Shown piece by piece: positions 10,838 to 41,356 of a DNA stretch of 64,000 nucleotides. The translations under genes and the position numbers were made by a program. Source of the stretch: Selenomonas sp. oral taxon 892 str. F0426 (GTDB lineage Bacteria; Bacillota; Negativicutes; Selenomonadales; Selenomonadaceae); NCBI RefSeq assembly GCF_000468035.1, contig NZ_KI260545.1, positions 1-64,000 of the forward strand. Direction: 5' to 3'. A model generated the notes under the pieces. The model ran no database searches, had not been told where the DNA came from, and saw only the letters and a program-made list of their open reading frames with translations. Each line of letters opens with the position of its first letter. Position 1 is the first letter of the stretch.

Positions 10838-12111
10838 TGAAAATCCATCCTTCCACTAATAACAAATTCTTCGTGATAAATTTCTCTTTGTCTTTTATCC
10901 GATGAAAATCTTCCTTCTTTATCTCTGTATGGAGTAAGTAGTTTATTTGAGATCTTACGTTTTGATGCTTTTAAATTAGAAAACCCATTCTCTCGAAGGC
11001 AACAAATTAAATGTTCTGCATTTCTTATCTTAACACCCTTATATTCAGTATCACCAACGACAAAAAGAGCCATTCCTCCTGTATTCAACATTTTTGCACA
11101 TTTAGAAATAGCCCTTTCAATATCGGCATAATATCTTGCTACTGCACGAACTTTTCTATTAAAACCTTGTTTGTTTTTTAAATCTTGCACTATACTGAGC
11201 CCTACAGGATTTAAGGGTATATTCTCCAGCTGAACTTCTTCACTATTATAAAGGCTGCCTATAGAACCTTGTCTTAAAGTGCGATAGTCCTCAGCGTAAT
11301 CCAACCATAATGAAGAAAGTTGATGTAAATCAGCATATTCATAAGAAGTCACATAAGGAGGACTAGAGACTATCATATCTACCTTGGGTAGTTTCGTAAT
11401 TTCTAAAAAATTTTTACAAATCATATTTACATCTTTATGCTGATAGTAATATTGTTGTATTTGTGCAATTGCCTGAAGAAATTTTTGACATTGCCTGTCA
11501 AAAAGATACCAAACATCTTTGGGGGATTTATCAGGATCTACTTGGGGCTTAATAGATTTGGTTAACCATCTTGAAGCCCCTTTTAAAATGGAAGAAAGAA
11601 CACATAAGAACGCATTTAAATAAATATCGTCTTTTGATATACTCATCATTACTGATCGTTTTAAACGTAATACATCAAGAAAACGTTCTCTTGAAAACCA
11701 ATATTGTAGCCTTATATTTGCATTTTCATATTGAACGTCAGATAAATCCATTGAAAAAAACCGTTTTTTAATTTCTTGATAATAATCATTAAATTTTTCT
11801 ATGCTGTATTCCGAGTTTTTCGTTTTTGCAATTAGAATTGCTACTGGATTAATGTCACATCCCCAAAAATGTTTACTATGCAGCTTTGCCTCAAGTGCCA
11901 CAGTGCCACAACCACAGAAAATATCTGCAACACACTGAACATCCACTCCTTCTTCTTCTGCGTATTCAAATGCTTTACTTGCAATAAAGGCTGGAAATTT
12001 CGCAGGATAAGAGTGAATTGAGTGCATAAGTTTTTCTTTCTCTTGACTAAAATTCCACGCATTCTCTATGATGATTGATTCAATAGTATCGCTTTCTTTT
12101 AATCCGATCAT
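10834..12111 (-). CDS. DNA methyltransferase, SPPY type
   Basis: A 425-residue SAM-dependent DNA methyltransferase, probably modifying an exocyclic amino group (N4-cytosine or N6-adenine). It has the N-terminal HSIHSYPAKFPAF motif typical of this branch, the SAM-binding VADIFCGCGTVALEA with GCDINPVA following, and catalytic motif IV VSSPPYVTSYEY. I prefer the ATG at 12111 (AGG about 7 bases upstream; homology starts soon after) to a GTG at 12159 that lacks a ribosome site. No restriction endonuclease lies nearby. Its stop overlaps the kinase start by four bases, so it is co-translated with a two-component pair, and an IS30 remnant lies 97 bases upstream. This is not a standard restriction-modification layout. 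Confidence 0.85.
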   Translation of the reverse strand: MIGLKESDTIESIIIENAWNFSQEKEKLMHSIHSYPAKFPAFIASKAFEYAEEEGVDVQCVADIFCGCGTVALEAKLHSKHFWGCDINPVAILIAKTKNSEYSIEKFNDYYQEIKKRFFSMDLSDVQYENANIRLQYWFSRERFLDVLRLKRSVMMSISKDDIYLNAFLCVLSSILKGASRWLTKSIKPQVDPDKSPKDVWYLFDRQCQKFLQAIAQIQQYYYQHKDVNMICKNFLEITKLPKVDMIVSSPPYVTSYEYADLHQLSSLWLDYAEDYRTLRQGSIGSLYNSEEVQLENIPLNPVGLSIVQDLKNKQGFNRKVRAVARYYADIERAISKCAKMLNTGGMALFVVGDTEYKGVKIRNAEHLICCLRENGFSNLKASKRKISNKLLTPYRDKEGRFSSDKRQREIYHEEFVISGRMDFQ

Positions 12112-12207
12112 GGCTATACCTAACCTTCTATCATAATAATTGCAAATATAATCCCCCACACTATATCGCAGAGATTTTTCATTGCATTTTGTGTTTTGAT
12201 GTTTCTA

Positions 12208-18511: not shown

Positions 18512-19963
18512 CTAAAACTGAAAATATAGAAACTCGGTCACATCTGACAGATGACTAATTCCATAAACAAATATCCCGGCAAGAACAACCGCCCATTTAT
18601 AGTTTGGTTGTAACCGCTTGATAATATCATTAGAGCTCGGAGAAAAAGAAACCAATAAAAGTGCCAACAACAGGACTTTCTTAGGGGCATCAAAAGCAAC
18701 AAGAGTCATCAAGTTGGTATCAAAGTGCCCATTCATGAAGTCAGCAATCACATGGGGTAAAAGGACGCCATTTCCACCCACCATTGCATATAAGACTTGA
18801 AGTGCATCTGTAACAGATTCTGCACGGAAAAAGACGAATGCCACCAATACCAGACCTAGGGTCAGAACATACCCAAGAGGCTTCCACATCCAGAGATGAT
18901 ATTTTTTCCACGTATGATTGAGAACGAGTCCAAGTCCATGCAGAGAACCAAAAATAATATAAGTCCATCCGGCTCCATGCCAAATACCCGCGATGAACAT
19001 TGAAGCAAAGGTCGCCACCATCGCCTTGCCGAATGTGATTTTTTTACACGCCATCACCATCGGCGTATAAAGATAGTTGGTGATGGTCGTTGTCAGCGAC
19101 ATATGCCAGTGCTGCCAGAAGTCAATAATCCCATAAGCACGATATGGTGCGTTGAAGTTAATAGGAATGCTAATATTCATCATACGGGCAATACCAACCG
19201 CCATATCACTATATCCGGAGAAATCAAAATACAATTGCATCATGTAACAGATGGCAACTGTCCAGCTGTCCACCAAGGTGAGCTGCTCCGGATGAGCAAA
19301 GCCTTTCGCAACAACAGTAACAAAACTGTCCGCAATCAGCACCTTCTTTGCAAGACCAATAATAAACAGACTCAACCCGCGTCCCAAATTATCCCAGTCC
19401 ACATGACGCAAAGAGGAGTCCTTAAACTGCTTCATCATGGGACGATGATAGAGGATCGGACCAGCCAAAAGGTGCGGAAAAAACGATACAAACAGCGCAT
19501 AGTGAATGAAGTTGCGCTCTTTTGCAACACCTTCATAACAGTCTACGAGATAGACCATCTGCGTAATCGTAAAGAAACTGATGCCAAGCGGAAGGATGAT
19601 ATGCAGGAGAGGGAACTGTGCGCCCAGATAATTCAAATTCTCAAGGAAGAAATCCGTATACTTGAAGAAGCCAAGCAATCCTGCATTAAAAATAATTCCC
19701 AACAGGAACACTGTCTTGGCATTTTTCTTTTGTTTTTCCTTACGGTATCGGATGATGTAGCCACTGATCACATAGTTAAAGCCGATGCTAAGCAAAAGGA
19801 GCGGCAGATACTTAATGTCCCAATAGGAATAAAAGAACAGGCTAAGTCCGACGAGCCAGATGTTTGCCCATTCCGATGTTTTCTCCCGATTGCCGAGAAA
19901 GAAATATCCGCCAACGGCAATCGGGAGAAACAGGAACAGGAACTCATACGAGTTAAAAAGCAC
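18512..19963 (-). CDS. MBOAT-family membrane O-acyltransferase (AlgI/DltB-like)
   Basis: A polytopic inner-membrane protein of 483 residues, predicted to pass an acyl group across the membrane for attachment to an extracytoplasmic glycan. Seen: about ten hydrophobic segments, the AlgI-like WQHWHMSLTTTITNYLYTP and the MBOAT catalytic histidine region IAGIWHGAGWTYIIFGSLHG. The start is GTG at 19963 with GGAG 8 bases upstream, just after the ACP stop. Its neighbours (ACP, SDR, MaoC, FkbH-like, SGNH) point to a dedicated acyl donor built on the ACP and delivered to the capsular polysaccharide. Donor and acceptor are not known from sequence. Confidence 0.9.
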   Translation of the reverse strand: MLFNSYEFLFLFLPIAVGGYFFLGNREKTSEWANIWLVGLSLFFYSYWDIKYLPLLLLSIGFNYVISGYIIRYRKEKQKKNAKTVFLLGIIFNAGLLGFFKYTDFFLENLNYLGAQFPLLHIILPLGISFFTITQMVYLVDCYEGVAKERNFIHYALFVSFFPHLLAGPILYHRPMMKQFKDSSLRHVDWDNLGRGLSLFIIGLAKKVLIADSFVTVVAKGFAHPEQLTLVDSWTVAICYMMQLYFDFSGYSDMAVGIARMMNISIPINFNAPYRAYGIIDFWQHWHMSLTTTITNYLYTPMVMACKKITFGKAMVATFASMFIAGIWHGAGWTYIIFGSLHGLGLVLNHTWKKYHLWMWKPLGYVLTLGLVLVAFVFFRAESVTDALQVLYAMVGGNGVLLPHVIADFMNGHFDTNLMTLVAFDAPKKVLLLALLLVSFSPSSNDIIKRLQPNYKWAVVLAGIFVYGISHLSDVTEFLYFQF

Positions 19964-19966
19964 CGC

Positions 19967-20215
19967 TTAATTCTCCTCTATCTTTTCCTGAATGAGGTCG
20001 ATCATTTCACCGACATTCTTCAGATCCTGCAGTTCGCCAAAGGCAAACTTGATATCGAACTGCTTTTCGATGGCAACAACAAGACGGATGTGAGACAGCG
20101 AGTCCCAATCCTCGATTTGCTCTGCATTGCTCTCATTGGTGATGACGAGATCCTCATCATCAAAAATATCCTGAAAAATCGGCTGAAGGTCGTTTAGAAT
20201 TTCCTCTTTGCTCAT
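19967..20215 (-). CDS. Acyl carrier protein
   Basis: An 82-residue acidic four-helix carrier. The phosphopantetheine attachment serine is Ser39 in EDWDSLSHIRLVVAIE, and the flanking helix II pattern is typical. I start at the second ATG (20215), which lies 9 bases from AAGGAG; the ATG at 20221 is too close. It is not in a fatty-acid synthesis operon but between the SDR and the MBOAT acyltransferase, so it is probably a dedicated carrier for the acyl group put on the polysaccharide. Confidence 0.92.
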   Translation of the reverse strand: MSKEEILNDLQPIFQDIFDDEDLVITNESNAEQIEDWDSLSHIRLVVAIEKQFDIKFAFGELQDLKNVGEMIDLIQEKIEEN

Positions 20216-20244
20216 GATCATCTACTCCTTTATCTTTAGAACAC

Positions 20245-20979
20245 TTAGAAGCCATCGCCACCCGTCACAGGAATGTTAACGCCTGTGATAAAGGTATTCG
20301 CATCTGAAAACAGATATTCAATCACCCCGACAACATCCTCAGTCGTTACATTCCGCTTTGCAGGATTCCCAGCCGCACTCTGTTGAACAACCTGTTCGTG
20401 CATATTCTGAAGGAATTTCGTCTCCATCATCGACGGAGATACCATATTGATCTGAATGTTCTTCGGCGCATACTCGACGGCAAGTGCTTTCCCAAGCCCC
20501 ATCAGGGCGTATTTTGCCATGACATAGCTTGACAGGTATTTCGGCGGCATATTGATCGTACACGAGGAAAGCCCGATCACAATCTTCCCCTGCTTAGCCT
20601 TCGTCAGCTGCTTGATAAACGCCTGCAAAACAACGATAAGTGCTCTGCATTGAACAGTCATTTGACCCTCTGCATCACTCCAAGTGATCTCTGTAAATCG
20701 CTGATTTTCAATTGGTACAGCAGGAACATGGAGGATATGTGTCGGTACGAATCCCTCCGATTTCAGCCCGTTTGCAAAAGCCACCGTACTCTCTTCATCA
20801 CGAAAGTCAGCTTGTACCAACCTCATCTGCGCAGGAATTTCCTGCGCTATTTTTTCCAGTTCTTTCATATTGCGAAAATACTGGGCGACGATCTCGTCGT
20901 CTTCCTGCCACCTATGCCGCCGCAGGAATGTGCAGCAAAGATCAGACGAAGCTCCAAGCAATAAATATCGTTTTCCCAT
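20245..20979 (-). CDS. Short-chain dehydrogenase/reductase (probable ketoacyl reductase)
   Basis: 244-residue classical SDR. The N-terminal nucleotide motif is a variant (LLLGASSDLCCTF), the catalytic serine is in GLSSCT, the Tyr-x3-Lys is YVMAK, and the C-terminal NIPVTGGDGF is typical of FabG-like proteins. It probably reduces a beta-keto or related acyl group on the neighbouring ACP. The ATG at 20979 overlaps the stop of the MaoC gene (TGATG), so the two are translationally coupled. Substrate is inferred only from context. Confidence 0.85.
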   Translation of the reverse strand: MGKRYLLLGASSDLCCTFLRRHRWQEDDEIVAQYFRNMKELEKIAQEIPAQMRLVQADFRDEESTVAFANGLKSEGFVPTHILHVPAVPIENQRFTEITWSDAEGQMTVQCRALIVVLQAFIKQLTKAKQGKIVIGLSSCTINMPPKYLSSYVMAKYALMGLGKALAVEYAPKNIQINMVSPSMMETKFLQNMHEQVVQQSAAGNPAKRNVTTEDVVGVIEYLFSDANTFITGVNIPVTGGDGF

Positions 20980-21392
20980 CAAAGCACCCCCGCTTCTATT
21001 CTCGCCTTGGAGACTTTCTTCCCATCCTGATTGCGAATGACCGCCTTGACAATAATCTGCCGAACGCTGTCATTTTTCTCCGTAATCTTACCCTCTACGC
21101 GGAGTGTATTTCCAATAAATACGGGATGCAAAAAGTCACTGTGTACGCTTTGCAGCAAGCAGCGCTCTCCTGGAAGATGTTCCCCTGCAAGACAGCTATA
21201 GAGTGATGCAGTCAGCATCCCATAGACAACGCGGTCCGAAAAGCCATGATCCCGTGCGAAGTCAGAACTTACATGGAGTGGATTATTGTCGCCGGAGACT
21301 GCACGGAACTGCTGCATCATTTCCGCTGTAACCTCGCGCGTAAACGCAGCACTCTGTCCCACATAAAGGTCTTCATAGGTCAAGTGATTCAT
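20979..21392 (-). CDS. MaoC-like hotdog-fold dehydratase
   Basis: 137 residues of the MaoC/(R)-specific enoyl-CoA hydratase type. The catalytic Asp/His motif is visible as SGDNNPLHVSSDFARDHGF, followed by YGMLTASLYS of the hotdog helix. Members add water to, or remove it from, acyl thioesters on CoA or ACP. It overlaps the FkbH-like gene by ATGA and the SDR gene by TGATG. FkbH-like, MaoC and SDR are therefore made in coupled fashion, as in a small polyketide-style acyl-building unit. Confidence 0.85.
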   Translation of the reverse strand: MNHLTYEDLYVGQSAAFTREVTAEMMQQFRAVSGDNNPLHVSSDFARDHGFSDRVVYGMLTASLYSCLAGEHLPGERCLLQSVHSDFLHPVFIGNTLRVEGKITEKNDSVRQIIVKAVIRNQDGKKVSKARIEAGVL

Positions 21393-23200
21393 GCAGATAC
21401 CTCCGTTAAGGAAATGAATTTCCCCTGTTTCTGATAAGTGTCAAGAGACAGCTTCCAGACAGTATCATCTCCCTCCTGCGTAATCTTCTCAAAGCCAAAC
21501 GTCGCATAGAGATCGGAAACCATCTTATTCTTTGCCGTTTTATAGTAGTAGCCAATCAACTCCTTACAGCCGTCAGCCGCAGCACACTCTACAAGCGCAT
21601 CGAGCATCATCTGTTCCATGCCTCTTTTCAGAACACGGCAGCTCATCAGCCACAGGCGAATATGCACTTCATCACCGATTTTTTCACCAATCACCACGGA
21701 AACCAGACCATTGTCACCAAATTTGTCCGTCAATCTCCCATATAGCGTGATATATTGCGGCTCATTCGCCATCTGCTCAATATCCGCACGCGTATAGCGG
21801 CGCGTTGTCAGATTGAACTGATTGGATTTATTGGTGAGCTGGGCAATTCTATCAAAGTACAGCGGTCGAAACGGTGCTATCTCTGCCTCCATCTGGAGTG
21901 ATTTCAGGAAGTCGTCATAGCTCTCCATCGCCCCTGCCAATTCTCTGCGCTGCTTGTTTTCCATATAGGAGGCATTGCGCTTCCGATCATCCTCAGAGAT
22001 CGTTACCGGCTCAAAATAACCGCCCCCCTCAATCGCCCGAATGTAGGAAAACACATCCACAGGATCGACTTCCGGCACCGTCACCTCGGGCATCGTATCG
22101 CGCACGATCTGTCGCTCCGCTGGATTATCATCGATGAAAACGAGGCTGTCCGTACCGATATTGATCTCTTCAGCAATCGCTTGGATGTTTCGATTCTTTG
22201 GTTCCCAGTTGGCTCGGAAGGAAACAAAATCATCTACATGAAGCACACTATCCGGGTGGTCAAATCCCGTCTTGGCAACATCTTCCTCATTCTTGGAGCA
22301 AACCGCCAAAATGATGCCTCGCGCCTTCAGCCCCAAGACATATTGCTGAAATGCAGTATATGCCTCAGCCGTCGGCGTTTCGTGCCCGATCTCAATATTC
22401 TCCATGCCATCATCGCCAATGATGCCGCCCCAGAGAGTGTTGTCGAGATCCAAGACAAGGCATTTTTTGTTTTTACCCAAGATCCCCTTGATGATCTTCG
22501 CGAGACTGAGCGAAACATCTGGGATCACATCGTAGCTCATCGCAAATTTATAGGCATAGTACTGGAAACGATCATGCCACTTAGAGAGTCCAATACGTGC
22601 AGCAAGTCCGTGTAAATCATGCAGATAGAAATTATTATGCGTTGCGGCATAGTCGGAAAAGCTTCGGTTAAGGAGCTCGATAAACCGCGTCATCCCGTAG
22701 GACTCGACCGTATCCAAATTTCCAAGACCTGTCTCATACGAGAGTTCCATATTGTTCTGTATGATGATTGCAGAAGGATAACGCGCAGCGAGTTTCTCCC
22801 AAATCTGCGTAAATCGTTTCATCTCCGCATCGTGTTTATCACGAACCACATCGTTGCTGTCACCGAGCGTAGGAGCGTCCAAAATATTTACTACACTCGT
22901 AAATACAACAATGATCTCCGGCTGAAATTCGTCAAGTTCCGAGTTACCAAAAACGGCATCCTCATAGTACTTATTGTATTCGGATTGATAGAACTGCGGA
23001 CGAATCCCTGCCTCTAGAAGAAAGAGTTCCAGAACATTCTTAATGTCATCGGTTGTCGATCCGCAGAGAACGGCAATCCGTTTGTCCATATATCCCGTAC
23101 CCTCACGCGCCAACAATGCCCGTCGGATGCTCTTTTGCTTTCGCATCAAGAGATCATTGTCATACGGATAGGTAAAGATTTTCTGTAAATCAAGCGGCAT
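21389..23200 (-). CDS. FkbH-like HAD-IIIC phosphatase/acyl-loading enzyme
   Basis: 603 residues in three parts: an N-terminal SGNH-like region (40-230), a HAD-IIIC phosphatase core with LVLDLDNTLWGG (Asp251, Asp253), AVCSKNEEDV and VFIDDNPAERQ, and a C-terminal GNAT-like domain (about 440-600). Family knowledge: FkbH-type proteins take a three-carbon unit from 1,3-bisphosphoglycerate, remove the phosphate and load glyceryl onto an ACP. Here an ACP is encoded four genes downstream. The start at 23200 has an AGGAGG site; an upstream ATG at 23242 adds 14 unlikely residues. The exact acyl product (glyceryl, lactyl or other) is not determined. Confidence 0.88.
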   Translation of the reverse strand: MPLDLQKIFTYPYDNDLLMRKQKSIRRALLAREGTGYMDKRIAVLCGSTTDDIKNVLELFLLEAGIRPQFYQSEYNKYYEDAVFGNSELDEFQPEIIVVFTSVVNILDAPTLGDSNDVVRDKHDAEMKRFTQIWEKLAARYPSAIIIQNNMELSYETGLGNLDTVESYGMTRFIELLNRSFSDYAATHNNFYLHDLHGLAARIGLSKWHDRFQYYAYKFAMSYDVIPDVSLSLAKIIKGILGKNKKCLVLDLDNTLWGGIIGDDGMENIEIGHETPTAEAYTAFQQYVLGLKARGIILAVCSKNEEDVAKTGFDHPDSVLHVDDFVSFRANWEPKNRNIQAIAEEINIGTDSLVFIDDNPAERQIVRDTMPEVTVPEVDPVDVFSYIRAIEGGGYFEPVTISEDDRKRNASYMENKQRRELAGAMESYDDFLKSLQMEAEIAPFRPLYFDRIAQLTNKSNQFNLTTRRYTRADIEQMANEPQYITLYGRLTDKFGDNGLVSVVIGEKIGDEVHIRLWLMSCRVLKRGMEQMMLDALVECAAADGCKELIGYYYKTAKNKMVSDLYATFGFEKITQEGDDTVWKLSLDTYQKQGKFISLTEVSA

Positions 23201-23259
23201 ATAATCGCCTCCTATAAAAATTACTTTATTATACGGAGTCAAATCATTATCGCAGAGTC

Positions 23260-24252
23260 CTAGTAGGAGTTTAATTCATTTTCCAAATCACGAATATGCT
23301 CCTCTACATTGTCTTTCGTCACCCAAACACCGAATCCACGGGGGAGGGGACTATCTTCCATTCCAAAGATACGGTCAATGATCTTATCTCCCACATTCGG
23401 ACGATAGTGAGCCGTATCATAGTAGTTATGGTTATCTATCGCAATCTCATTCAATCCGCTAAAATCATAATATCCTGTAATCCTAGCCAGTCGTCGTTTG
23501 AACTCATTGAATTCATTAAGGTCAATCTCTAAATAGTTCACCTTGCTCATTGGATTGATGAACACGATGAGTTCAATGCCATTTTCATCCGCCAGCTCTT
23601 TGATCTCCTGTATTTCTTGCATTGCCTCATCCATTCGATTACCGGAGCCACGCGTTGTAACATAGAGAAGGTTATTTGCATATTTCTCAGGATCTTTCTC
23701 TATTTCTTGCTCTGTTATGTAATGAAAAGGTCTTCCTGTATCATAAATATCAAAAACAGTGCCCTTAGTTTTCGCCGAAACAATTGATGGTTTTTGTAAC
23801 AAGAGCAATACGTACTGCGCCCAATCATATTCTTTATAAGATCTGCGCAAAAAATTCTTCTCATTGACCTTGGGATCGCCCCAATAAGAAACATTATCTA
23901 CGCCAAGAAGAATCTGCCGTATCTCAACCCCACCTGCAATAAGCTGTTTCATATCATTCAGCCACTCATAGGGAACACCGGCAGCATACGTCATATTATA
24001 ATACGTATATCCATTATGGATGCGTGTGAGATCTATGCTTCCCACACGAGACGGTCCAAAACAAAACGCATTGTATTTTTGGGGATTTTGCAGCAAAAAC
24101 TTCATTTTAACGTAATGTTCCGGTGTCCCAAGTTTCGGTGTCGAATAGTCGCCCCTGAAAAGCCCGTAATCGTCTACTACATAATTATAGCCCATCAGGA
24201 TCAATAAAAAGACTCCCGTAATAAAAATAAGTCTTTTCACATACTGTTTCAC
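23260..24252 (-). CDS. Membrane-anchored SGNH-type protein (AlgJ/AlgX/DltD-like)
   Basis: 330 residues. A single N-terminal anchor (residues 8-24, LIFITGVFLLILMGYNY) places the rest outside the cytoplasmic membrane. SGNH features are visible: block I CFGPSRVGS with the candidate nucleophile serine, and block V YYDTAHYRPN with the Asp-x2-His pair. The GTG start at 24252 has a GGGAGA site. Encoded at the head of the acyl-building block that ends in an MBOAT protein, it is the probable periplasmic enzyme that places (or removes) the acyl group on the polysaccharide, as AlgJ/AlgX do beside AlgI. Sequence similarity beyond the motifs was not testable. Confidence 0.7.
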   Translation of the reverse strand: MKQYVKRLIFITGVFLLILMGYNYVVDDYGLFRGDYSTPKLGTPEHYVKMKFLLQNPQKYNAFCFGPSRVGSIDLTRIHNGYTYYNMTYAAGVPYEWLNDMKQLIAGGVEIRQILLGVDNVSYWGDPKVNEKNFLRRSYKEYDWAQYVLLLLQKPSIVSAKTKGTVFDIYDTGRPFHYITEQEIEKDPEKYANNLLYVTTRGSGNRMDEAMQEIQEIKELADENGIELIVFINPMSKVNYLEIDLNEFNEFKRRLARITGYYDFSGLNEIAIDNHNYYDTAHYRPNVGDKIIDRIFGMEDSPLPRGFGVWVTKDNVEEHIRDLENELNSY

Positions 24253-24303
24253 AGATATTCTCCCAAAAAATCACTTAAGTTCCGCTCATTTTAACACGCA
24301 AAG

Positions 24304-24340
24304 TTCCTGCCGCATTTCTTTACATAAAATACGGCAGGAG
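24304..24340 (-). other. Hairpin separating sugar genes from acyl-decoration genes
   Basis: A 12-bp stem with one mismatch (24305-24317 with 24327-24339) lies in the 110-base gap between the DegT aminotransferase and the SGNH gene. The minus-strand 3' flank (AACTTTGCG) is only weakly U-rich. It may be a leaky terminator or attenuator splitting the long polysaccharide transcript. Confidence 0.45.
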
Positions 24341-24362
24341 CCTCATAAACGAATCGAATTGC

Positions 24363-25448
24363 TCAAGAAAAATATGCCTTAATGTGTGCACAAACCTCAG
24401 TAATTTCCTCATCTGTCAATTGTGCCGCAGATGGAAGCCAAAGTCCCTTACGTGCAATCTCCTCCGTCACTGGATAGCTGCCCTCATAGCCGTAGGCAGG
24501 TTCTGCATGAAGCGGTGGATAGAAATCGCGCGAACCCACGCCGTGCTCCTTCAGATAGGCTTTCAGGCTTTCGCGATCCTCTACGAGAATATCAATAAAC
24601 CACGGGGTCGTGTTTTCATAATTCGTAGGAATAAACTCGATCTCTTTGACATCAGAAAGCAGCTTTTCGTACAGCTTGCCGATTTCCTTCTTGCGCTCGA
24701 CACGATAGGAAAGCTTCTTCATTTGTTCCAAGCCGACGACCGCCTGCAGATCTGTGAACTTAAAGTTCCAGCCCTTGATAAGATAGTGATCCATACCGCC
24801 CTGCGAGCGTCCGAAATCACGTATTTTCTTGATACGGTCGAACAGTTCCGCATCGTCCGTGATGAGCGCACCGCCCTGACCGGTCGTGATGACCTTCGGC
24901 GCACTGAATGAAAAACTGCCGATATGCCCGAAAAGCCCGAGATGCTTTCCGTTGAATCGTGAGCCGAGAGACTGTGCGGCATCCTCAATCAACCAGAGTC
25001 CCTTCTCTTTGCAGAATTCTGCAAACTTCTCGATTTCATCCGGATAGCGCCCATTGATCGTTACGAGCATAACAGCCTTTGTTTTCGGTGTAATCGCCGC
25101 TTTCATTTTTTCAAAATCCATGCAGAGATTTTTCCGATTGATATCCACGAAAACAGCCTTTGCTCCAATCAGCTCTGCAGAGTTCGGTGTGGCAACCATT
25201 GTATAGTCAGGAACGATAACCTCATCATCCTTCTTCACACCACAGGCCATCAGGGCAATTGAAAGGCTGACCGTACCATTTGCAACGACAGAACAATACT
25301 TCGCCCCTGTGTATTCGGCGATACGGTCTTCAAACTCACGCGTCTTTCGGAACTCTGTCACCCAGCCGCCGGACTTCATATACTCATGTACTGCATTCGC
25401 CTCAGCTTCGTCAAACCACGGCTCCATCTGATTGATAAATTTATCCAT
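24363..25448 (-). CDS. DegT/DnrJ/EryC1/StrS-family sugar aminotransferase (GDP-perosamine synthase-like)
   Basis: 361 residues, PLP-dependent. The Schiff-base lysine is Lys185 in SFSAPKVITTGQGGAL, the PLP-contact aspartate is in WLIEDAAQSLG (Asp156), and the N-terminal VVANGTVSLSIAL is typical. Family members aminate 4-keto (or 3-keto) nucleotide sugars. Beside gmd and manC the expected product is a GDP-4-amino-4,6-dideoxy sugar such as GDP-perosamine, with the following acyltransferase as possible N-acylating partner. The start at 25448 has AGGAGA 7 bases upstream; the longer frame to 25502 adds 18 unlikely residues. Confidence 0.88.
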   Translation of the reverse strand: MDKFINQMEPWFDEAEANAVHEYMKSGGWVTEFRKTREFEDRIAEYTGAKYCSVVANGTVSLSIALMACGVKKDDEVIVPDYTMVATPNSAELIGAKAVFVDINRKNLCMDFEKMKAAITPKTKAVMLVTINGRYPDEIEKFAEFCKEKGLWLIEDAAQSLGSRFNGKHLGLFGHIGSFSFSAPKVITTGQGGALITDDAELFDRIKKIRDFGRSQGGMDHYLIKGWNFKFTDLQAVVGLEQMKKLSYRVERKKEIGKLYEKLLSDVKEIEFIPTNYENTTPWFIDILVEDRESLKAYLKEHGVGSRDFYPPLHAEPAYGYEGSYPVTEEIARKGLWLPSAAQLTDEEITEVCAHIKAYFS

Positions 25449-25509
25449 GTGTATTCTCCTATAAAATCTCACCAAGTAAAACTTATGTACAGCAGCGAGC
25501 ATTAACCTC

Positions 25510-26070
25510 TTATCTGCCAGACACGGAGTTTAGAAATTCTCGTTCCTTCGCCAAAATTTCCTCGCGGTTTCTTGGCACCATCGACTTTGCCGGATTGCCT
25601 AGATGCAAATACCATTCCTTTGTAGATTTATTGACTAGCGATAATGCACCTACTGCCGAGCCTTCAGCAATGGTAACATTGGGCAAAATCACGGTATTTG
25701 ACCCGATAAGCACATGATTTTTTATGACAACTTCAGCTGCCTGGCATTTCGGTCTGAACTGAATGGGAATGGTCACATTTCCAAACCCCTCCAAGAAGTC
25801 ATCCGATCCGCAAATAATACGGCATCCTGCAGCAATACCACAGTAGTTGCCTACTTCAAAGTAGGAGGCTTTTCCTCCAATAACAGAGCAGGAAGGAGAT
25901 ATATGACAGTAATCGCCGATCTTCACACTGGTGGTAAAATAACAAAAATCGTCAATGATGACATTATCGCCAATCTCCACTTCACCAGGGTAGCGGAAAT
26001 ATACGTTGCGCCCAATCTGGACATTCTTTCCGATCTTCTTGAATTTATACACCAGATCTGTATATGGCAT
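25510..26070 (-). CDS. Left-handed beta-helix (hexapeptide repeat) acyltransferase
   Basis: 186 residues built of hexapeptide repeats (for example IGRNVYF, IGDNVIIDD, IGDYCHIS, IKNHVLIGSNTVILPNVTIAEG). The C-terminus is the typical NPAKSMVPRNREE segment seen in sugar acetyltransferases such as the perosamine N-acetyltransferase or colanic-acid type enzymes. It probably acetylates the amino sugar made by the adjacent aminotransferase, using acetyl-CoA in the cytoplasm. It overlaps nothing but is packed within 20 bases of its neighbours. Acceptor is inferred. Confidence 0.85.
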   Translation of the reverse strand: MPYTDLVYKFKKIGKNVQIGRNVYFRYPGEVEIGDNVIIDDFCYFTTSVKIGDYCHISPSCSVIGGKASYFEVGNYCGIAAGCRIICGSDDFLEGFGNVTIPIQFRPKCQAAEVVIKNHVLIGSNTVILPNVTIAEGSAVGALSLVNKSTKEWYLHLGNPAKSMVPRNREEILAKEREFLNSVSGR

Positions 26071-26087
26071 AATTGCACCTCCGACGA

Positions 26088-26495
26088 TCAGATGCGAACC
26101 CGATCCACCTCAGCCCCCAAATAGGGCCCATTCTTGATCTCGACGACCTGCGTACCGTCTTCTAATATCTTATACCCATGCGCGCCATTGAGCAAGACCA
26201 AAACTTCTCCCTGCTTGACAACAAAGCTGTCGAGCAGCGTATGTTCCTCATCCTCATCAAAGATACTTGCCTGAATCGAACCTTTTTGAATCACAAGCAC
26301 CTCTTGTGTTCGTTCGACCGTACGCTCTACAAGATTATGCTGATGCGCCAACAGATCCTTACCCGCTTCATAGCGCCATGTTCCAACCTGAATAAAGTCA
26401 CTATCATCCGAAAAAAATCCAAGACCATCCTGAATATCATCTGCCGTGATATGCTTCGCTAAAATCTTCCCGCTTGGAGATTGTACGATTTTCAT
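26088..26495 (-). CDS. Cupin-fold protein of the sugar pathway
   Basis: 135 residues, single cupin barrel: the His-containing first motif is around LLAHQHNLVERTV and the second around GEVLVLLNGAHGYKIL. It has a GAGG ribosome site and lies between the GDP-sugar reductase/epimerase and an acyltransferase gene. Possible roles are an epimerase or isomerase on a keto sugar, or a stand-alone metal-binding cupin. It does not carry the full RmlC-type signature, so I do not assign an activity. Confidence 0.65.
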   Translation of the reverse strand: MKIVQSPSGKILAKHITADDIQDGLGFFSDDSDFIQVGTWRYEAGKDLLAHQHNLVERTVERTQEVLVIQKGSIQASIFDEDEEHTLLDSFVVKQGEVLVLLNGAHGYKILEDGTQVVEIKNGPYLGAEVDRVRI

Positions 26496-26540
26496 GTATG
26501 TACCTCATTTCAATCAAATTACAACAAAACAAGAAGCACT

Positions 26541-27452
26541 TTAGCAATGCTCAAGATACCACTCGACCGTCTCCCGAATCCCATCTCTGAAATTCTTTTC
26601 CGGACTCCAGCCAAGGAGTTCAGCCCCCTTGCTCCCGTCCACAGTCTTATACGGAGCCCCATCAGGCTTCGAGGGATCGAGTTTCAGTTCTCCCGTATAG
26701 CCGACATCCTCTTGGATGAGTTTCGCCATATCGATGATGGAAATTCCCTTACCTACACCGATGTTCACCGGCTGTTCCGAGTGCGGCGCATCAAGCCCGC
26801 GCACCATCGCTTCCGCACCATCATCGACATAGAGCCATTCGCGTACGGGCTTTCCCGACCCCCACACAATGACCTCGGGCAGGTTCTCGCGCTTTGCCTT
26901 GACAATCTTCATAACGAGAGCGCCGAGCGCATGGGATCGCTCCTCCTCGAAGTGATCCTCCGGACCGTACATATTGGAAAGAATCAGATTGAGGGAGTCC
27001 AGCCCATACTGCTTCTCATATGCCCATGCACCGACCCAGGAAGTCTTACGCGCATGACCATAAACCATCACTGACTCGTGTAGCTCTCCTTCCCAGAATT
27101 CGTCCTCTTTAAAGAATGTCGCGCGAGCCGGATAGGCACAATTCGAAATAGGGTTGACCAGTCGCTGCACAGAAAGCTCTCTGCAAGCCTCTAAGAGGTT
27201 GATCGTCATCAGAAGATTGTTGCGGAAAAGCTCTGCCGGATGCTTATAACCGAACTGGATTCCGCCAACGTATGCCGCACAGTTGATGACTTTCTCAGGC
27301 TTTACTTCTTTGAACAGCATTTGAACAGCGGAGAAATCCCGCAGATCCATCCCCATCGAAAGCGATGTCGGATAAAATTCTAAACCACGTGCTTCCAGTT
27401 TTTTTGCGACACGTTTTCCAAGAAAGCCCGTCGCCCCCGTCAATAAAATCAT
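26541..27452 (-). CDS. GDP-4-keto-6-deoxy-sugar reductase/epimerase-like protein (GDP-fucose synthase family)
   Basis: 303 residues. The Rossmann motif [12 protein letters not shown] opens the protein, the [21 protein letters not shown] stretch (given here as landmark) is typical of GDP-fucose synthase, and the [10 protein letters not shown] block carries the catalytic serine/cysteine region. The catalytic tyrosine is in [10 protein letters not shown], where the residue four after Tyr is Arg and Lys follows at plus five, unlike the strict Tyr-x3-Lys rule. It acts after gmd, 3 bases upstream in the operon (the genes overlap). Product could be GDP-fucose-like or, with hddA/hddC present, a GDP-6-deoxy-heptose. 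Confidence 0.82.
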
Positions 27453-28477
27453 TTGTGATCACCGCCATAGCTGTCAAACTTCATATCGTAGTCCATCATG
27501 ATCTCTACAAGACGTTCGAAGCTCGTCTTGTTCGTCCATCCCAGCTTCTCCTTCGCCTTGGTCGGATCTCCCCACAGAAACTCGACCTCGGCAGGACGGA
27601 AGTACTTCGGATTCACCTCAACCAGCAGACGATTCGTCTTGCGGTCATACGCCTTTTCCTCGACACCCTCGCCGTCCCAGGCAAGCTCCACACCGATATG
27701 ATGGAAAGCGAGTTCCGTAAACTCGCGTACTGTATGCGTTTCACCCGTCGCAATGACAAAGTCATCCGGCTTCTCCTGCTGCAGCATGAGCCACATTGCC
27801 TCGACGTAGTCCTTTGCATAGCCCCAATCGCGCTTCGCATCCAGATTGCCAAGGGAAATTTTATCCTGTCGCCCCTGCGCAATGCGCGCGACGGCGCGTG
27901 TGATTTTCTTCGTTACAAACGTCTCACCACGGCGCGGAGATTCATGGTTGAACAAGATGCCATTGCACGCATACAGATTGTAGGCTTCTCTAAAGTTCAC
28001 CGTAATCCAGTACGCATATAGCTTCGCTGCGCCGTACGGACTCTTGGGATAGAACGGAGTTTTCTCGCTCTGCGGTGCAGTCTCAGGAAGCCCGCCAAAG
28101 AGTTCCGATGTCGATGCCTGATAAAAACGCGTATTGCTGCGCATCTCTCGAATCGTGTCAAGAAGTCGAAGCGTACCCAGCCCATCTACATCTGCGGTAA
28201 ATTCAGGCACGTCAAAAGAAACCTGCACATGGGATTGTGCCGCCAAATTATAAATTTCATCCGGCTGAATCTTTTCCATCAGGCGATTGAGGTTGGATGA
28301 GTCAATCATATCACCGTGATACGTGTGAATATCCTTCATCAAATGCTCGATACGTGCCGTATTAAACACGCTCGCACGGCGAACAATGCCATGCACCTCA
28401 TAGCCTTTTTCCAGCAGAAATTCTGCAAGATAGGAGCCATCTTGCCCCGTCAGCCCTGTAATAAATGCTTTTTTCAT
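27449..28477 (-). CDS. gmd: GDP-mannose 4,6-dehydratase (or GDP-manno-heptose 4,6-dehydratase)
   Basis: 342 residues, extended SDR. Seen: [19 protein letters not shown], the [15 protein letters not shown] and TSELFGG blocks, catalytic [16 protein letters not shown] (Tyr-x3-Lys), [16 protein letters not shown] and the C-terminal [21 protein letters not shown], all typical of Gmd. It converts GDP-mannose to GDP-4-keto-6-deoxymannose. Because GDP-heptose genes flank it, a DmhA-like activity on GDP-manno-heptose is also plausible. The start at 28477 has GGAGG 7 bases upstream; the longer frame to 28510 was rejected. It overlaps the downstream reductase gene by 4 bases. Confidence 0.92.
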
Positions 28478-28506
28478 CTTCGTCCTCCATTCTATACTTT
28501 GTAGAT

Positions 28507-29202
28507 TCACGCAAATCCACTATCTGCATATCTATCTCTAGCCTGAAAGTAATCCTCAGGAATGCCAATATCGATAAAAAATCCATCCGAAAGATACGCT
28601 ATGATGTCCAACTTTCGGACATAGATTTCCAAATGTTTTTCAAAGGAAAACTTATCCTCCGCCTCATTCAGTAGATCCCTTCGAAGGCAGTAGATGCCAC
28701 CATTGATCCAACCGGCAGATTGCTGCTCCTTTTCACGAAAAGCGCAAACTTGTTTTCCTTCCAGAACCACGGTACCATACCGATCAAAGTCCTTCATTTC
28801 TTTAACGGCAATGGAAACATCCGCCTTGGATTCTTCAAATTCCCTCTTCATCTGAGAAAAGTCCACATCAAAGTAGGTATCTCCATTGAGCACAAAGACA
28901 TTTTCCTCGTCACAACAGGAAAGTGCTTTCTTGATTGCGCCCCCTGTCAAAAGAGGCGTTTTCTCCTCCGAATAAATCAACCGGACTCCACGATAGCTAT
29001 CGCCAAAATATTCCTCGATCTTATTGTGCATATACCCTGTTGACAGAATGATTTTCTCGAAACCATATTGAAACAGCTTATCCAATAAGATTGATAAAAA
29101 CGGCGTTCCCCTGTCATCTATGGAAGCCATTGGTTTAGGTACATCTGAGACAATATGCTTCAGCCGTGTACCAAAGCCACCGGCCAAAATGATTGCTTCC
29201 AT
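28507..29202 (-). CDS. hddC: D-glycero-alpha-D-manno-heptose-1-phosphate guanylyltransferase-like nucleotidyltransferase
   Basis: 231 residues. The start [14 protein letters not shown] followed by [13 protein letters not shown] and TGGAIKKAL matches the HddC branch of sugar-phosphate nucleotidyltransferases rather than ManC or Gal[13 protein letters not shown] holds the metal-binding aspartate. It would activate manno-heptose-1-phosphate with GTP, giving GDP-D-glycero-alpha-D-manno-heptose. Its pathway partner HddA is encoded at 33713. It lies just upstream of gmd (about 30 bases), so the two are cotranscribed. Confidence 0.87.
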
Positions 29203-29229
29203 GTATCTCCTCCTAAAAAGACTTAGACC

Positions 29230-29829
29230 TTACAGAAACCAGCCGCGATAGGTCAGATCATAGGTCAAATCCTTCTGCCTTGTCCCAATCACTTTGCCGG
29301 GTACACCTCCCACAAGGCTGAATGGCGGAACGGACTGCGTGACAACAGCCCCGGGGAGGATGACCGCCCCCTCCCCAATGGTAACCCCGGGCATAATCAT
29401 CGCCCGTGTGCCGATCCACACGCGATCCTCGATCCGAACCGGTGCGGAATAATAGGCAAAATCCGTTGAATTGATTCGATGACCACCGGTATATATGGCG
29501 GCTTCTGCCGAGATGTTTACATTATTCCCAATATATACATCATCGCGCCAATCAAGAATGACATTTCGATTGATTGCCGTATTTTTCCCGATCGAAATAC
29601 CATGAAAAGTTGGTGGGTATAGGTAAACCCCCATATAAATAAAGACTGATCTATCCATCTTCATTTTTACAACAAAGCGATAGTAAACCCATCGAAATAA
29701 TTCGCAAGGGATATGTGCAATGATGTGATTCACAATGTATCCACGAAAAAAACTATTTGTTGCTAATAAAAGTTCTTTCAGTGGCGGAAGATCATTGATA
29801 TATCTCATAAACTTACCGGACTTTTTCAA
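29230..29829 (-). CDS. Left-handed beta-helix O-acetyltransferase (WcaF/Maa-like)
   Basis: 199 residues. The C-terminal two thirds are hexapeptide repeats (IGKNTAINRNVILDW, IGNNVNISAEAAIYTGGH, IGTRAMIMPGVTIGEGAVI) ending in LVGGVPGKVIG, typical of sugar or serine O-acetyltransferases of the capsule type. The histidine in YTGGHRI is the likely catalytic base. The TTG start at 29829 has GGGAG upstream and overlaps the preceding glycosyltransferase by 17 bases; an ATG at 29808 is possible. It probably acetylates a sugar or repeat unit. Confidence 0.85.
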   Translation of the reverse strand: MKKSGKFMRYINDLPPLKELLLATNSFFRGYIVNHIIAHIPCELFRWVYYRFVVKMKMDRSVFIYMGVYLYPPTFHGISIGKNTAINRNVILDWRDDVYIGNNVNISAEAAIYTGGHRINSTDFAYYSAPVRIEDRVWIGTRAMIMPGVTIGEGAVILPGAVVTQSVPPFSLVGGVPGKVIGTRQKDLTYDLTYRGWFL

Positions 29830-31030
29830 AATTTTCTCCCACCTTAAGTCCTAGAATCGTCGCCCATTTTTTTCTATTCTTCGGCGAAACAAAGGTATCA
29901 TAAAAAAATTCAACTGCCCCCCGAGATAGAGAGCTTCTCACTTCTGCCGATTCTGTCAGGCAACCCATGTGTTCCAAATACTCCTCCGTTCTCGATGAGA
30001 CAAGATACGGTTTCTCGTACTCCGTCGTAAAAGGAACTCCTTCAAAACAATGCTCCGATGCCACAATCGGAATCCCGATCGAGAGACCTTCAATCAATTT
30101 CAATTTCGTCCCGGAGCCAACAATAATCGGTGAAACCATAAAACGGCAAGAACATAGTAACTCATACAGACGTTCCTCACTAACAAAGCCGGTAAATTCA
30201 ATATTTGCATGAGAAAACTCTTTTCGAACAGAATCCTTAACCCCGCCTGTAATGAGCAATTTCATCTCCGGATAACGTTTTGAGTACTTCGGAAAAACAG
30301 TTTTGCAAAACTCCTTCATACTATAATAGTTTACATAGGAATTCAGTGAACCATTGAAAATGATATGCTTTGAAGCCCTTTCTTTCCATCGAATATCAGG
30401 CATCTCCATTGGAATCGGCAAAAAGATCACATTGGTCAATCCAAACTCCTTTTCCAAAATTTCCTTATCCACCGGAGAGACTGTAACAATCTTGTCCGCC
30501 TGCGGCAAAATTGTTCTTTCATACTTTTTCATCCGGCTAATTTCCGGCCAAGCCAGACAACCATATTTAGACAATGCTTCCTGCTCGTAAATATATTCCA
30601 CATTATGTTCAACAAGAATGATCCGTATTCCCTTTTTTTTCACAGTTTCAAAGTCGATATGCTCTGCCGTAAATGGCAGTTCAAGAAGAATTGTATCAAT
30701 ATTATGCTTCTCGATGTAGTCCATCACATGTTTCTTATTTTCTCTTGATTCAAGAACCTGAGCACGTCTTGGTTTACCGGACAGCAGCCATTCCGACAGC
30801 GCCTTCACTGGTCGTTTGCCAACCTTTGGATGACAACGCCGAAGAATCAAAAGATCTTCGAATTCCGGCATGTACTCGCGCCAATCCTCGCATCCATCAT
30901 TGACATTACTCATGACACCGTAAAGTTTGACCCCCATCTGATGCAACATACGATGATGTACCCGGAGACCTTGCAGTCCCCCGTCGATAGCAGGATAAAC
31001 TTTCAGCGGCATAATTACAAGAATATTCAT
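29813..31030 (-). CDS. Glycosyltransferase, GT4 family
   Basis: 405 residues, GT-B fold. The N-terminal LVIMPLKVYPAIDGGLQGLRV begins the acceptor domain. The C-terminal donor domain has FNGSLNSYVNYYS, LLITGGVKD and the SPIIVGSGTKLKLIEGLSIGIP block containing the retaining-type glutamate. It transfers one sugar of the repeat unit at the cytoplasmic face of the membrane; the sugar is not predictable. I use the ATG at 31030 (AAGGTG 6 bases upstream) rather than the GTG at 31039. Confidence 0.87.
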   Translation of the reverse strand: MNILVIMPLKVYPAIDGGLQGLRVHHRMLHQMGVKLYGVMSNVNDGCEDWREYMPEFEDLLILRRCHPKVGKRPVKALSEWLLSGKPRRAQVLESRENKKHVMDYIEKHNIDTILLELPFTAEHIDFETVKKKGIRIILVEHNVEYIYEQEALSKYGCLAWPEISRMKKYERTILPQADKIVTVSPVDKEILEKEFGLTNVIFLPIPMEMPDIRWKERASKHIIFNGSLNSYVNYYSMKEFCKTVFPKYSKRYPEMKLLITGGVKDSVRKEFSHANIEFTGFVSEERLYELLCSCRFMVSPIIVGSGTKLKLIEGLSIGIPIVASEHCFEGVPFTTEYEKPYLVSSRTEEYLEHMGCLTESAEVRSSLSRGAVEFFYDTFVSPKNRKKWATILGLKVGENFEKVR

Positions 31031-31093
31031 CCAGTTCACCTTTTTCGAGCATTCGATTCAATGTTAACATAATCCGGAATATACCATCTAAAA

Positions 31094-32521
31094 CTACCGA
31101 CTTGCATAAAGTCTCGTACATTCAAAAAGAATCAAAACGTACGGCTCCACATAAAGTGTAACCACTCCAAAAAACATTCCCCAAACAACGACAAAAATGC
31201 TCAGAAATATAAGATCATATCGCTGCTGAATCCTCCCTGCTGAGGAAGCTAATACGCGAAACCATAGGATAAGCCCTACTACCCCTAGATCAGACAGCAT
31301 CGTTGGAAGTGCAGCCAGCGCAAACTGAAATCCAATTCCCAGCCCCAACAAAGGGCGGTCCACAAAGCTTGCCGTGACATCAAAGATACTTGTCAGCCGT
31401 GCAAAAGTCGAAAGCTCTCCCTCCGCCCCGATCGCCGCCAATGCCCCACTTGTTGCAAGAGCATTTATCGTATAGAGTACATCCTCCATGCGTGCAATCG
31501 CATATTCCATTTCTTCTCCAAAGAAAAACAGAACACCTCCAACAACCGAAAAGACAACCATCAGTGTCACAATAATATAGGGAATACTCTCACGCAAAGT
31601 TTTTTTATAAATATCATATCGCAGGGAAAAGTAGACCAAGAACAAAATAAAGAGACACCACCATGCAGAAAATCCGCCGGAAAGAATCATCAAGACAATC
31701 AAAAGAAGTAGATAGACATGATAAACAGAAATTCCCGATTTATTAAATCGAACCGTTTGAATTTTATTCCAGATAAGAATACTCAATGCAATAACAAACA
31801 TGGAAAGGATAAAATGTGATGCCTCTTTTGTCACCCCTTGCAGAACATAGAGATCGCCGCCTTTTGTAAAGGCATGTGTAAAGGTGCTTTCACCTACACC
31901 AAAAATAATTTCATTAATGTCATACGTCAGGGTTAAATTCCCAAGTATGTTTTTTTCAACAAACTCAAATATGGCGTAGTATGCCAATGGCTGAGAATAT
32001 ACAATCACCCTTTTCAACACAACCATAAGATCATCATCATTACAGATGATTTTAACACTGGCAACTATGCCCAAAAACGTCACCACACCAAAATAAAGAC
32101 GGAATGCATTCCCTACTTCAAGAGGAGCGACAACCTTGGTGCATTGCCCCATTGTATAAAGATCCCACGAATAATCAGGAAGTGGTGGTATAATCGGCTC
32201 TGTATAAGGATAAACAAGTGCTGCAAGGATACCCGCCATAAGGCTTGCCAGAAGCAGCCCGGTACGAAATACTAATTGTTGCGGCAACTGCATCCTATGA
32301 ATCAAAATATAATATAAACCGTACAGAAAGCATACAAGTCCGGATAATTTTCTAAGGCTGGAAATCTCCGTATCGCCAACCAACAGCAAATATCCTTGCG
32401 GCATCGCAATGGCCATGATGGTTGCCAGTGTCAAAAAGGAGAGATATTTTTCCTTTGAAGAGCCTCCCGCCAACAAAATGTATCCCATATAGATCAACAA
32501 TAACACCGAAGCGATTGGCAC
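31094..32521 (-). CDS. wzy: Polysaccharide polymerase, Wzy/O-antigen ligase-like
   Basis: 475 residues, about ten to twelve hydrophobic segments with a larger extracytoplasmic region before the last ones (ATSGALAAIGAEGELSTFAR and GIGFQF). Such proteins vary too much in sequence for motif proof; assignment rests on topology, size and position in a Wzx/Wzy locus between glycosyltransferases. It would polymerise lipid-linked repeat units on the outer face of the inner membrane. The GTG start has a GGGGGG site. An O-antigen ligase role cannot be excluded. Confidence 0.72.
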   Translation of the reverse strand: MPIASVLLLIYMGYILLAGGSSKEKYLSFLTLATIMAIAMPQGYLLLVGDTEISSLRKLSGLVCFLYGLYYILIHRMQLPQQLVFRTGLLLASLMAGILAALVYPYTEPIIPPLPDYSWDLYTMGQCTKVVAPLEVGNAFRLYFGVVTFLGIVASVKIICNDDDLMVVLKRVIVYSQPLAYYAIFEFVEKNILGNLTLTYDINEIIFGVGESTFTHAFTKGGDLYVLQGVTKEASHFILSMFVIALSILIWNKIQTVRFNKSGISVYHVYLLLLIVLMILSGGFSAWWCLFILFLVYFSLRYDIYKKTLRESIPYIIVTLMVVFSVVGGVLFFFGEEMEYAIARMEDVLYTINALATSGALAAIGAEGELSTFARLTSIFDVTASFVDRPLLGLGIGFQFALAALPTMLSDLGVVGLILWFRVLASSAGRIQQRYDLIFLSIFVVVWGMFFGVVTLYVEPYVLILFECTRLYASR

Positions 32522-32533
32522 TCATACCCCCCC

Positions 32534-33706
32534 TTACAACGATAGCAAATAAGCAGACAGTTTTTCCTTTTGATTGTAATTTTCTCTCAAATATGCCTGT
32601 GCGCGGTTGACAAAATTTCGGCGCACAGAAACATCTCCCAAAAGCTCTGTGATATACCTGCAAAGGGCTTTTGGGTCGTCATCCACAAGGACTTGCTCTC
32701 CATGGATAAGCCCTGTTCCCTCGTTGCCGATTGTGGTAGCGACAACAGGAAGCCCGTTTACAATGGCGTTCACCGTCTTTAATTTTACGCCGGCGCCATA
32801 TCGCATGGGATTGACAAAAACACTCGATCGTGCATAGAGCTCATCCAATTTCTCCGGTGTATCATGGATCTCTACATTGTTATAATCACTTGTCAGCTTC
32901 TCAATCCACGCAATTCCTTGTTTCCTGCTGTTCCCGGCAATAATCAGACGATACCCCTCGACATCCCGCGTCAGATGCGGATGCACTTTCTGCAAATAAA
33001 AGCGAACAGCGTCCTGATTGTTAATCATGAACAACGACCCTATCAGCAAGACCGTCTTCGAATCCAGTGCCTGTTCCCTGTATTCCGTCTCAATTGCCAC
33101 AGGCAAAAATGTCGCATGGATTTGGGGATATGCTCTTTTGTAGCGAAGCATTTCATCATAAGAAACAAAAGCGATATTCGGGAGGGAACGAACGACAGCA
33201 ACATCTATTTGCTTATACTTGAATGCATCCAGAAGAAAGTACACTTTTTTCCAAAGGACGCCCTCACTGCTCGCAAGCCCTTTGAAATAAACATAGTTGT
33301 CATTGTTCATATGCAGCATCGCTTTATCATAAGACAACCTTGGATTCTGCAAAATAAGCATGGCAGCAGTATCATCAACGATCAAGTAATCATATTTACC
33401 CTCTAAGCCCACATGTTTTAACTGTTCTCTTGATTTCAGCTGTAACGGAAGAAAAGAAAATATATCGACGATGCGGTTCTTGCGTGGACAAAGAAACAAG
33501 TTCCGCACATATTTTTTTACTTCGTCCACATATTCCTGCTTTGGCGATTCTTTCACTGTGCAGATCAAATCTACAATACATCCCATCTGTCGTAAGCATT
33601 TGATGCGATTCCATGAATCCACCCGATCACCATGATCCGGTGGGTAGACGAAATCACAATTCACCATCAGTACGGTTTTCCCTTCAAATCCACCCAAAAT
33701 CTTCAC
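32534..33706 (-). CDS. Glycosyltransferase, GT4 family
   Basis: 390 residues, GT-B fold. The N-terminal LMVNCDFVYPPDHGDRVDSWNR and the C-terminal VFVNPMRYGAGVKLKTVNAIVNG block with VATTIGNEG after it resemble transferases whose donor domain ends in the E-x7-E-type region, although the first glutamate is replaced here (KLKTVNA). Acts cytoplasmically on the growing lipid-linked unit. The GTG start follows closely after hddA (about 7 bases). Confidence 0.83.
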   Translation of the reverse strand: MKILGGFEGKTVLMVNCDFVYPPDHGDRVDSWNRIKCLRQMGCIVDLICTVKESPKQEYVDEVKKYVRNLFLCPRKNRIVDIFSFLPLQLKSREQLKHVGLEGKYDYLIVDDTAAMLILQNPRLSYDKAMLHMNNDNYVYFKGLASSEGVLWKKVYFLLDAFKYKQIDVAVVRSLPNIAFVSYDEMLRYKRAYPQIHATFLPVAIETEYREQALDSKTVLLIGSLFMINNQDAVRFYLQKVHPHLTRDVEGYRLIIAGNSRKQGIAWIEKLTSDYNNVEIHDTPEKLDELYARSSVFVNPMRYGAGVKLKTVNAIVNGLPVVATTIGNEGTGLIHGEQVLVDDDPKALCRYITELLGDVSVRRNFVNRAQAYLRENYNQKEKLSAYLLSL

Positions 33707-33712
33707 CCTTAT

Positions 33713-34723: not shown

Positions 34724-34766
34724 TTGCCCACCTCGTTTATTGTATACGTCCCTGTTTTAAAGACTA

Positions 34767-37387: not shown

Positions 37388-37421
37388 TTCTGACAGGAAC
37401 TCCTCTCTTATAATAAGGACT

Positions 37422-38510: not shown

Positions 38511-38534
38511 AATCGACCTGCCCCCTTATAAGGT

Positions 38535-39971: not shown

Positions 39972-39996
39972 AAATATGCTCCCCTCCTTTTCTGTA

Positions 39997-41337: not shown

Positions 41338-41356
41338 AATTCAATCTCCTCCCGAC

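Follow-up and report, generated by a model that had tools for sequence, protein, structure and literature searches.

On the minus strand of the window, the whole 64,000-nucleotide stretch of DNA analysed, six packed and intact genes in the order SGNH-FkbH-MaoC-SDR-ACP-MBOAT occupy positions 18512-24252 (open reading frame list and motif check; Table 1) and probably constitute a self-contained cassette for surface acylation, operating in the manner of the Dlt system and fed by a glycolytic loader. In the mechanism that we favour, FkbH would transfer the glyceryl unit of 1,3-bisphosphoglycerate to its conserved cysteine and then load it onto the dedicated ACP, at the phosphopantetheine arm. MaoC would eliminate the 3-hydroxyl group of glyceryl-ACP to yield an enol and then pyruvyl-ACP, which SDR would reduce to lactyl-ACP. 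Taking the acyl group from the ACP, MBOAT would move it across the membrane to Tyr480, within the FLYFQF motif at its C terminus. The anchored SGNH protein would accept it on Ser68 to form an ester on a polymer of the cell surface, for which the capsule encoded by the upstream genes is a possible candidate.

A preliminary description of this DNA had reported six tightly packed, partly overlapping genes that combine acyl building with acyl transfer and export by MBOAT and SGNH proteins; all six ORFs are present with intact motifs, and the composition of the set supports such a role. FkbH overlaps MaoC by 4 nt, as does MaoC with SDR. The SGNH and FkbH genes are 59 nt apart (with FkbH starting at ATG 23200) and the other non-overlapping neighbours 3-23 nt, the ACP-MBOAT gap being 3 nt. 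This grouping is not due to chance, since relatives retain the same gene content.

The block encodes the sole MBOAT of the 2.3 Mb genome, which falls in the Selenomonadaceae, the GTDB family that also includes Mitsuokella oral taxon 131 (L017). Upstream, positions 24363-42112 hold a capsule-type run with GDP-mannose dehydratase and GDP-heptose genes, glycosyltransferases, WbaP-like, Wzz and Wza; a ManC-like gene lies downstream of the block, and a hexapeptide acyltransferase gene (25510-26070) and the DegT gene adjoin it. The window also encodes a 1085-aa HD-CE protein (PF24391; 13715-16972, minus strand) with a GC content of 0.375, compared to 0.494 for the window. PADLOC gave no match for this protein, whose gene adjoins a possible type II methylase/restriction pair (8603-12159).

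Table 1. Features of the acylation block and its immediate upstream neighbourhood
Feature	Position	Strand	Basis or remark
SGNH-fold transferase (predicted DltD-like fold), N-terminal membrane anchor	23260..24252	-	predicted catalytic Ser68, Asp279, His282
Predicted FkbH glyceryl loader, FkbH_N + HAD-IIIC/FkbH domain	21389..23200	-	TIGR01686, PF21211, RBS, motifs
MaoC-type hotdog dehydratase/hydratase	20979..21392	-	PF01575; motif FRAVSGDNNPLH alignment
SDR reductase, FabG/YmfI-like	20245..20982	-	PF13561; catalytic YxxxK
Acyl carrier protein, DSL phosphopantetheine site	19967..20221	-	PF00550; 3 nt before MBOAT gene
MBOAT acyltransferase, DltB-like core + two C-terminal helices + terminal FLYFQF	18512..19963	-	PF03062, model
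Stem-loop, 14 bp stem, between capsule aminotransferase gene and SGNH gene	24285..24362	-	-26.8 kcal/mol, z -4.4
DegT aminotransferase, neighbour outside the cassette; downstream end of capsule gene run	24363..25502	-	family match

Putative loading and transfer enzymes

FkbH is matched by TIGR01686 with 299.5 bits (curated cut-off 146.65) and its FkbH_N domain by PF21211 with 48 bits (cut-off 27). The ORF spans positions 23242-21389 of the minus strand (617 aa); its true start is likely the ATG at 23200, giving 603 aa, because an AGGAGG ribosome-binding site stands immediately ahead. The motifs LDLDNTLW and WLMSCR are both intact, with the DxD residues at 265/267 and Cys535 (numbering of the 617-aa ORF), and the DxD and cysteine motifs are kept in A1 and in nearly all of the 87 listed FkbH matches. 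The conserved cysteine of WLMSCR is presumably the acyl acceptor. ACP gives 27 bits with PF00550 (cut-off 20.8) and has an intact DSL motif. The role of FkbH put forward in the preliminary description, loading of three-carbon units taken from 1,3-bisphosphoglycerate, is predicted at family level, TIGR01686 being well above its cut-off; this metabolite is the likely source in FkbH glyceryl-ACP pathways (PMC7489565).

The MBOAT protein scores 70 bits with PF03062 (cut-off 27) and 178.8 bits with the DltB equivalog TIGR04091, below its cut-off of 375. A PDB search with the MBOAT profile reaches DltB alone (E 9e-40), and DltB is also the top match of the structure model (pLDDT 87.9), with 24% identity. 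His287, His329 and the C-terminal FLYFQF with Tyr480 are intact; the histidine pair, Tyr480 and Phe483 are invariant in an alignment of 32 MBOATs. The acyl-tyrosine mechanism of PatA/DltX has been demonstrated by experiment (PMC12148441). FxYxxF as a motif specific to the cassette was rejected, since it occurs in every one of 30 background MBOATs, and its presence in background MBOATs without a linked ACP means that it is no marker of ACP use. An ACP gene adjoins only two of these 30. It is probable that the ACP of the block is the direct acyl donor to its MBOAT.

The SGNH protein has no family match in Pfam or NCBIfam. It carries a single N-terminal membrane helix, and the motifs GPS (G66, S68) and DTAH (D279, H282) are conserved in an alignment of 25 sequences. 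The top nine Foldseek hits of its model (pLDDT 79.7) are DltD proteins (E 9e-5 to 6e-4), with low TM-scores (0.41-0.44) and with DltD level with generic SGNH enzymes in a second alignment. Model and motifs together point to a DltD-like SGNH fold with Ser-Asp-His as putative catalytic residues.

Recurrence and modular composition

A scan for FkbH alone yielded at least 80 loci in named genomes, and with the window and other genomes at least 87 distinct FkbH loci were annotated. Neighbours within 8 kb of FkbH were counted on the same versus the opposite strand. Among the 87 listed loci the same strand carries ACP in 82, MBOAT in 62, MaoC in 29, SDR in 22, VOC in 15 and transketolase in 12, compared to 0, 7, 0, 0, 4 and 0, respectively, on the opposite strand. 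Listed loci with both FkbH and MBOAT comprise 29 without detected tailoring genes, 15 with MaoC and SDR, nine with VOC, eight with transketolase and MaoC, and one with MaoC alone; MaoC is directly followed by SDR in 17 loci. The listed FkbH loci belong mostly to Bacillota and also to Synergistota, Spirochaetota, Gemmatimonadota, Kiritimatiellota, Lentisphaerota and Alphaproteobacteria. The cassette is thus a recurrent family with varying tailoring genes, MaoC and SDR being optional and other enzymes standing in their stead in relatives.

This distribution bears on two readings that uncouple FkbH and ACP from the MBOAT-SGNH pair. MBOAT genes without FkbH are common in the same bacterial family, as would suit an alginate-type O-acetylation pair lying by chance beside an unrelated ACP/FkbH pathway, but such a coincidence is scarcely credible when loci found by FkbH only have a same-strand MBOAT in 62 of the 87 listed, from several MBOAT lineages and phyla. 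The second reading has the hexapeptide acyltransferase N-acylate a DegT aminosugar from the ACP in the cytoplasm, leaving plain acetylation from acetyl-CoA to the MBOAT pair. The adjacency of the DegT and hexapeptide genes to the block speaks for it, together with locus L086, where FkbH-ACP adjoins GNAT and aminotransferase genes, and with the Campylobacter flagellin loci, in which FkbH-like and ACP genes are present. We regard it as quite unlikely, however, since loci L010, L017 and L012 keep ACP-MBOAT-SGNH with no DegT or hexapeptide gene seen alongside, and ACP-MBOAT linkage extends across lineages while being so rare among background MBOATs.

The cassette with the ACP feeding MBOAT remains our preferred reading. 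FkbH-ACP could plausibly serve other acyltransferases too, because 25 of the 87 listed FkbH loci have no same-strand MBOAT within 8 kb and L086 has the neighbours described above. L016 (10448-11422), beside an FkbH-ACP pair without MBOAT, encodes a 324-aa protein with a VOC-like part and a GNAT-like beginning, a possible N-acylation branch. In L047 (12148-13690) the MBOAT beside FkbH-ACP is broken into ORFs of 370 and 112 aa by a frameshift of the gene or of the assembly.

Components appear to be exchanged between cassettes. The MBOATs of the window, L010 and L017 (Mitsuokella oral taxon 131) share 78-81% identity; the SGNH proteins of L010 and the window cannot be aligned with each other (22% over 58 aa), and window-type SGNH genes are found beside remote MBOATs in L021 and L035. 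Judging from these sequences, the SGNH protein has been swapped between cassettes with 81%-identical MBOATs. L012 keeps FkbH, ACP and MBOAT at 68-80% and has a VOC gene where the window has MaoC and SDR. In an MBOAT tree built by a quick method, with no bootstrap, a very long DltB row and no AlgI or PatA references, the FkbH-linked label changes nine times, at least six of them forced by supported branches, and a single origin of the FkbH-linked MBOATs was rejected on these forced changes. We read the FkbH-ACP loader-carrier unit as having been paired repeatedly with different MBOAT-SGNH pairs. Locus L128 (5161-9763, G067) has in a row an AMP-binding ligase, ACP, MBOAT and an SGNH-like protein, adjoined by a PgaC-like glycosyltransferase, and resembles a Dlt-like set for exopolysaccharide with another loader than FkbH.

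There is about an even chance that all these belong to a widespread modular class of carrier-protein-fed MBOAT-SGNH systems, in which FkbH or an AMP ligase would load the ACP, exchangeable tailoring genes would define the group (glyceryl, epimerised glyceryl, lactyl or transketolase-extended), an exchangeable SGNH protein would define the acceptor, and the window's member would make lactyl esters on a surface polymer. If the cassette works as proposed, carrier-protein-fed acylation would not be rare beyond Dlt but common, gut and oral bacteria would bear on their surface polymers three-carbon hydroxyacyl esters straight from glycolysis, and the ester type would be predictable from gene content.

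Acyl group and acceptor polymer

MaoC is matched by PF01575 at 74 bits (cut-off 27), with an intact SGDNNPLH motif, and SDR by PF13561 at 119 bits, with YxxxK present. By likeness to polyketide loading modules, both enzymes would act on glyceryl-ACP; the bryostatin loading module is composed of FkbH, a dehydratase and a ketoreductase. D-lactate-ACP was assigned to FkbH loading modules (PMC7901079). On this analogy we tentatively rank lactyl as the most likely acyl product. The main alternative, somewhat unlikely, is that unmodified glyceryl or another three-carbon hydroxyacyl group follows the same transfer route, the change made by MaoC and SDR being minor or different. Glyceryl would be the ground state given the 29 listed FkbH and MBOAT loci without detected tailoring genes, and L012 has VOC, not MaoC and SDR; yet in the window both genes are intact, with 4-nt overlaps at FkbH/MaoC and at MaoC/SDR, and they form a recurrent pair.

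Another alternative is that MaoC and SDR process fatty-acid or butyrate intermediates to (R)-3-hydroxybutyryl-ACP, with FkbH supplying something else. The MaoC motif is of the (R)-hydratase type, SDR is similar to FabG and acetoacetyl-CoA reductases, and (R)-3-hydroxybutyryl is a common polysaccharide substituent. The block has neither ketosynthase nor thiolase, however, and FkbH and ACP are constant where MaoC and SDR vary, making this origin of the acyl group very unlikely compared to the lactyl route.

The VOC proteins of relatives are members of the glyoxalase superfamily, like methylmalonyl-CoA epimerase, and may act as epimerases on glyceryl-ACP. In loci L024, L031, L063, L013 and L090, FkbH-ACP-MBOAT is accompanied by MaoC and a transketolase encoded in split genes, and in some of them by an aldo/keto reductase as well, which suggests a two-carbon lengthening of the three-carbon acyl group.

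As to the acceptor, the capsule proposed as target in the preliminary description is not established. Three of the four relatives studied carry the block among unrelated genes, away from the capsule locus: the flanks in L010, L011/L017 and L012 encode RND efflux, a methyltransferase, BioY, a flavin oxidoreductase, an M48 peptidase and glycerol genes, with no DNA similarity to the window's flanks detectable. The WbaP homologue lies more than 300 kb off in G002, on another contig in G029 and G040, and about 40 kb off in G012. In the window, the stem-loop of Table 1, followed by a short U run, parts the capsule genes from the block and may be an attenuator or terminator of the capsule transcript. 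Since the block stands away from the capsule genes in three of these four relatives and behind this stem-loop here, the capsule is only a candidate acceptor, which may equally be or not be the true one. Capsule linkage as a general rule was rejected, as at least two capsule-type genes occur in only 23 of the 87 listed FkbH loci, counted with HMMs seeded from the window that miss other families.

Comparison with known systems

The search of the open-access literature found no description of this set, in line with the preliminary description, which knew of no characterised example, and gave nothing relevant on gellan glyceryl transfer genes or FkbH and MBOAT sets. A suomilide paper was rejected as an example of the latter, FkbH and MBOAT there being unrelated steps.

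The D-alanylation of teichoic acids by Dlt, a decoration of Gram-positive cell walls, and not alginate acetylation, is the nearest mechanistic relative of the cassette, given that DltB and DltD are the top model matches, that ACP stands beside MBOAT like DltC for DltB, and that MBOAT ends in FxYxxF. The AlgI/AlgJ-like pair of the preliminary description holds as an MBOAT and an SGNH protein, but its alginate model gives way to Dlt, whose path from carrier protein to MBOAT to SGNH protein fits better; filing under AlgI/AlgJ was rejected with an SGNH protein lacking a family match and an MBOAT profile reaching only DltB in the PDB. The block shares with Dlt (DltABCD, DltX) a carrier protein as the probable donor, an MBOAT, an acyl-tyrosine motif and an SGNH transferase. 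It differs in having FkbH instead of the DltA ligase and extra tailoring enzymes, and in a shuttle motif that is fused to MBOAT, whereas DltX is separate. No DltA-type AMP-binding ligase was matched among the six block genes or the adjacent capsule-run proteins scanned, and a separate DltX microprotein with FxYxxF is absent, the ACP-MBOAT gap leaving no space for a gene.

The PatA/PatB and AlgI/AlgJ acetylation pairs likewise have an MBOAT with a C-terminal FxYxxF and a separate SGNH protein, and are described as using acyl-CoA without a carrier protein, as stated in 2025 for the non-Dlt MBOAT-SGNH pathways (PMC12148441); here, in contrast, ACP and loader are encoded beside the pair. With the FkbH glyceryl-ACP pathways to tetronates and methoxymalonyl-ACP the block has in common the FkbH domain, a stand-alone ACP and the likely 1,3-bisphosphoglycerate source. 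It has no methoxymalonyl-ACP partners (FkbG/FkbI-type; O-methyltransferase, acyl-CoA dehydrogenase) and, unlike those pathways, no polyketide synthase, the acyl group being predicted to exit the cell on a polymer. The bryostatin-type modules (FkbH-DH-KR) that load lactate in trans-AT polyketide synthases likewise unite FkbH, dehydratase, ketoreductase and carrier protein, whereas here stand-alone enzymes would feed an MBOAT, not a synthase.
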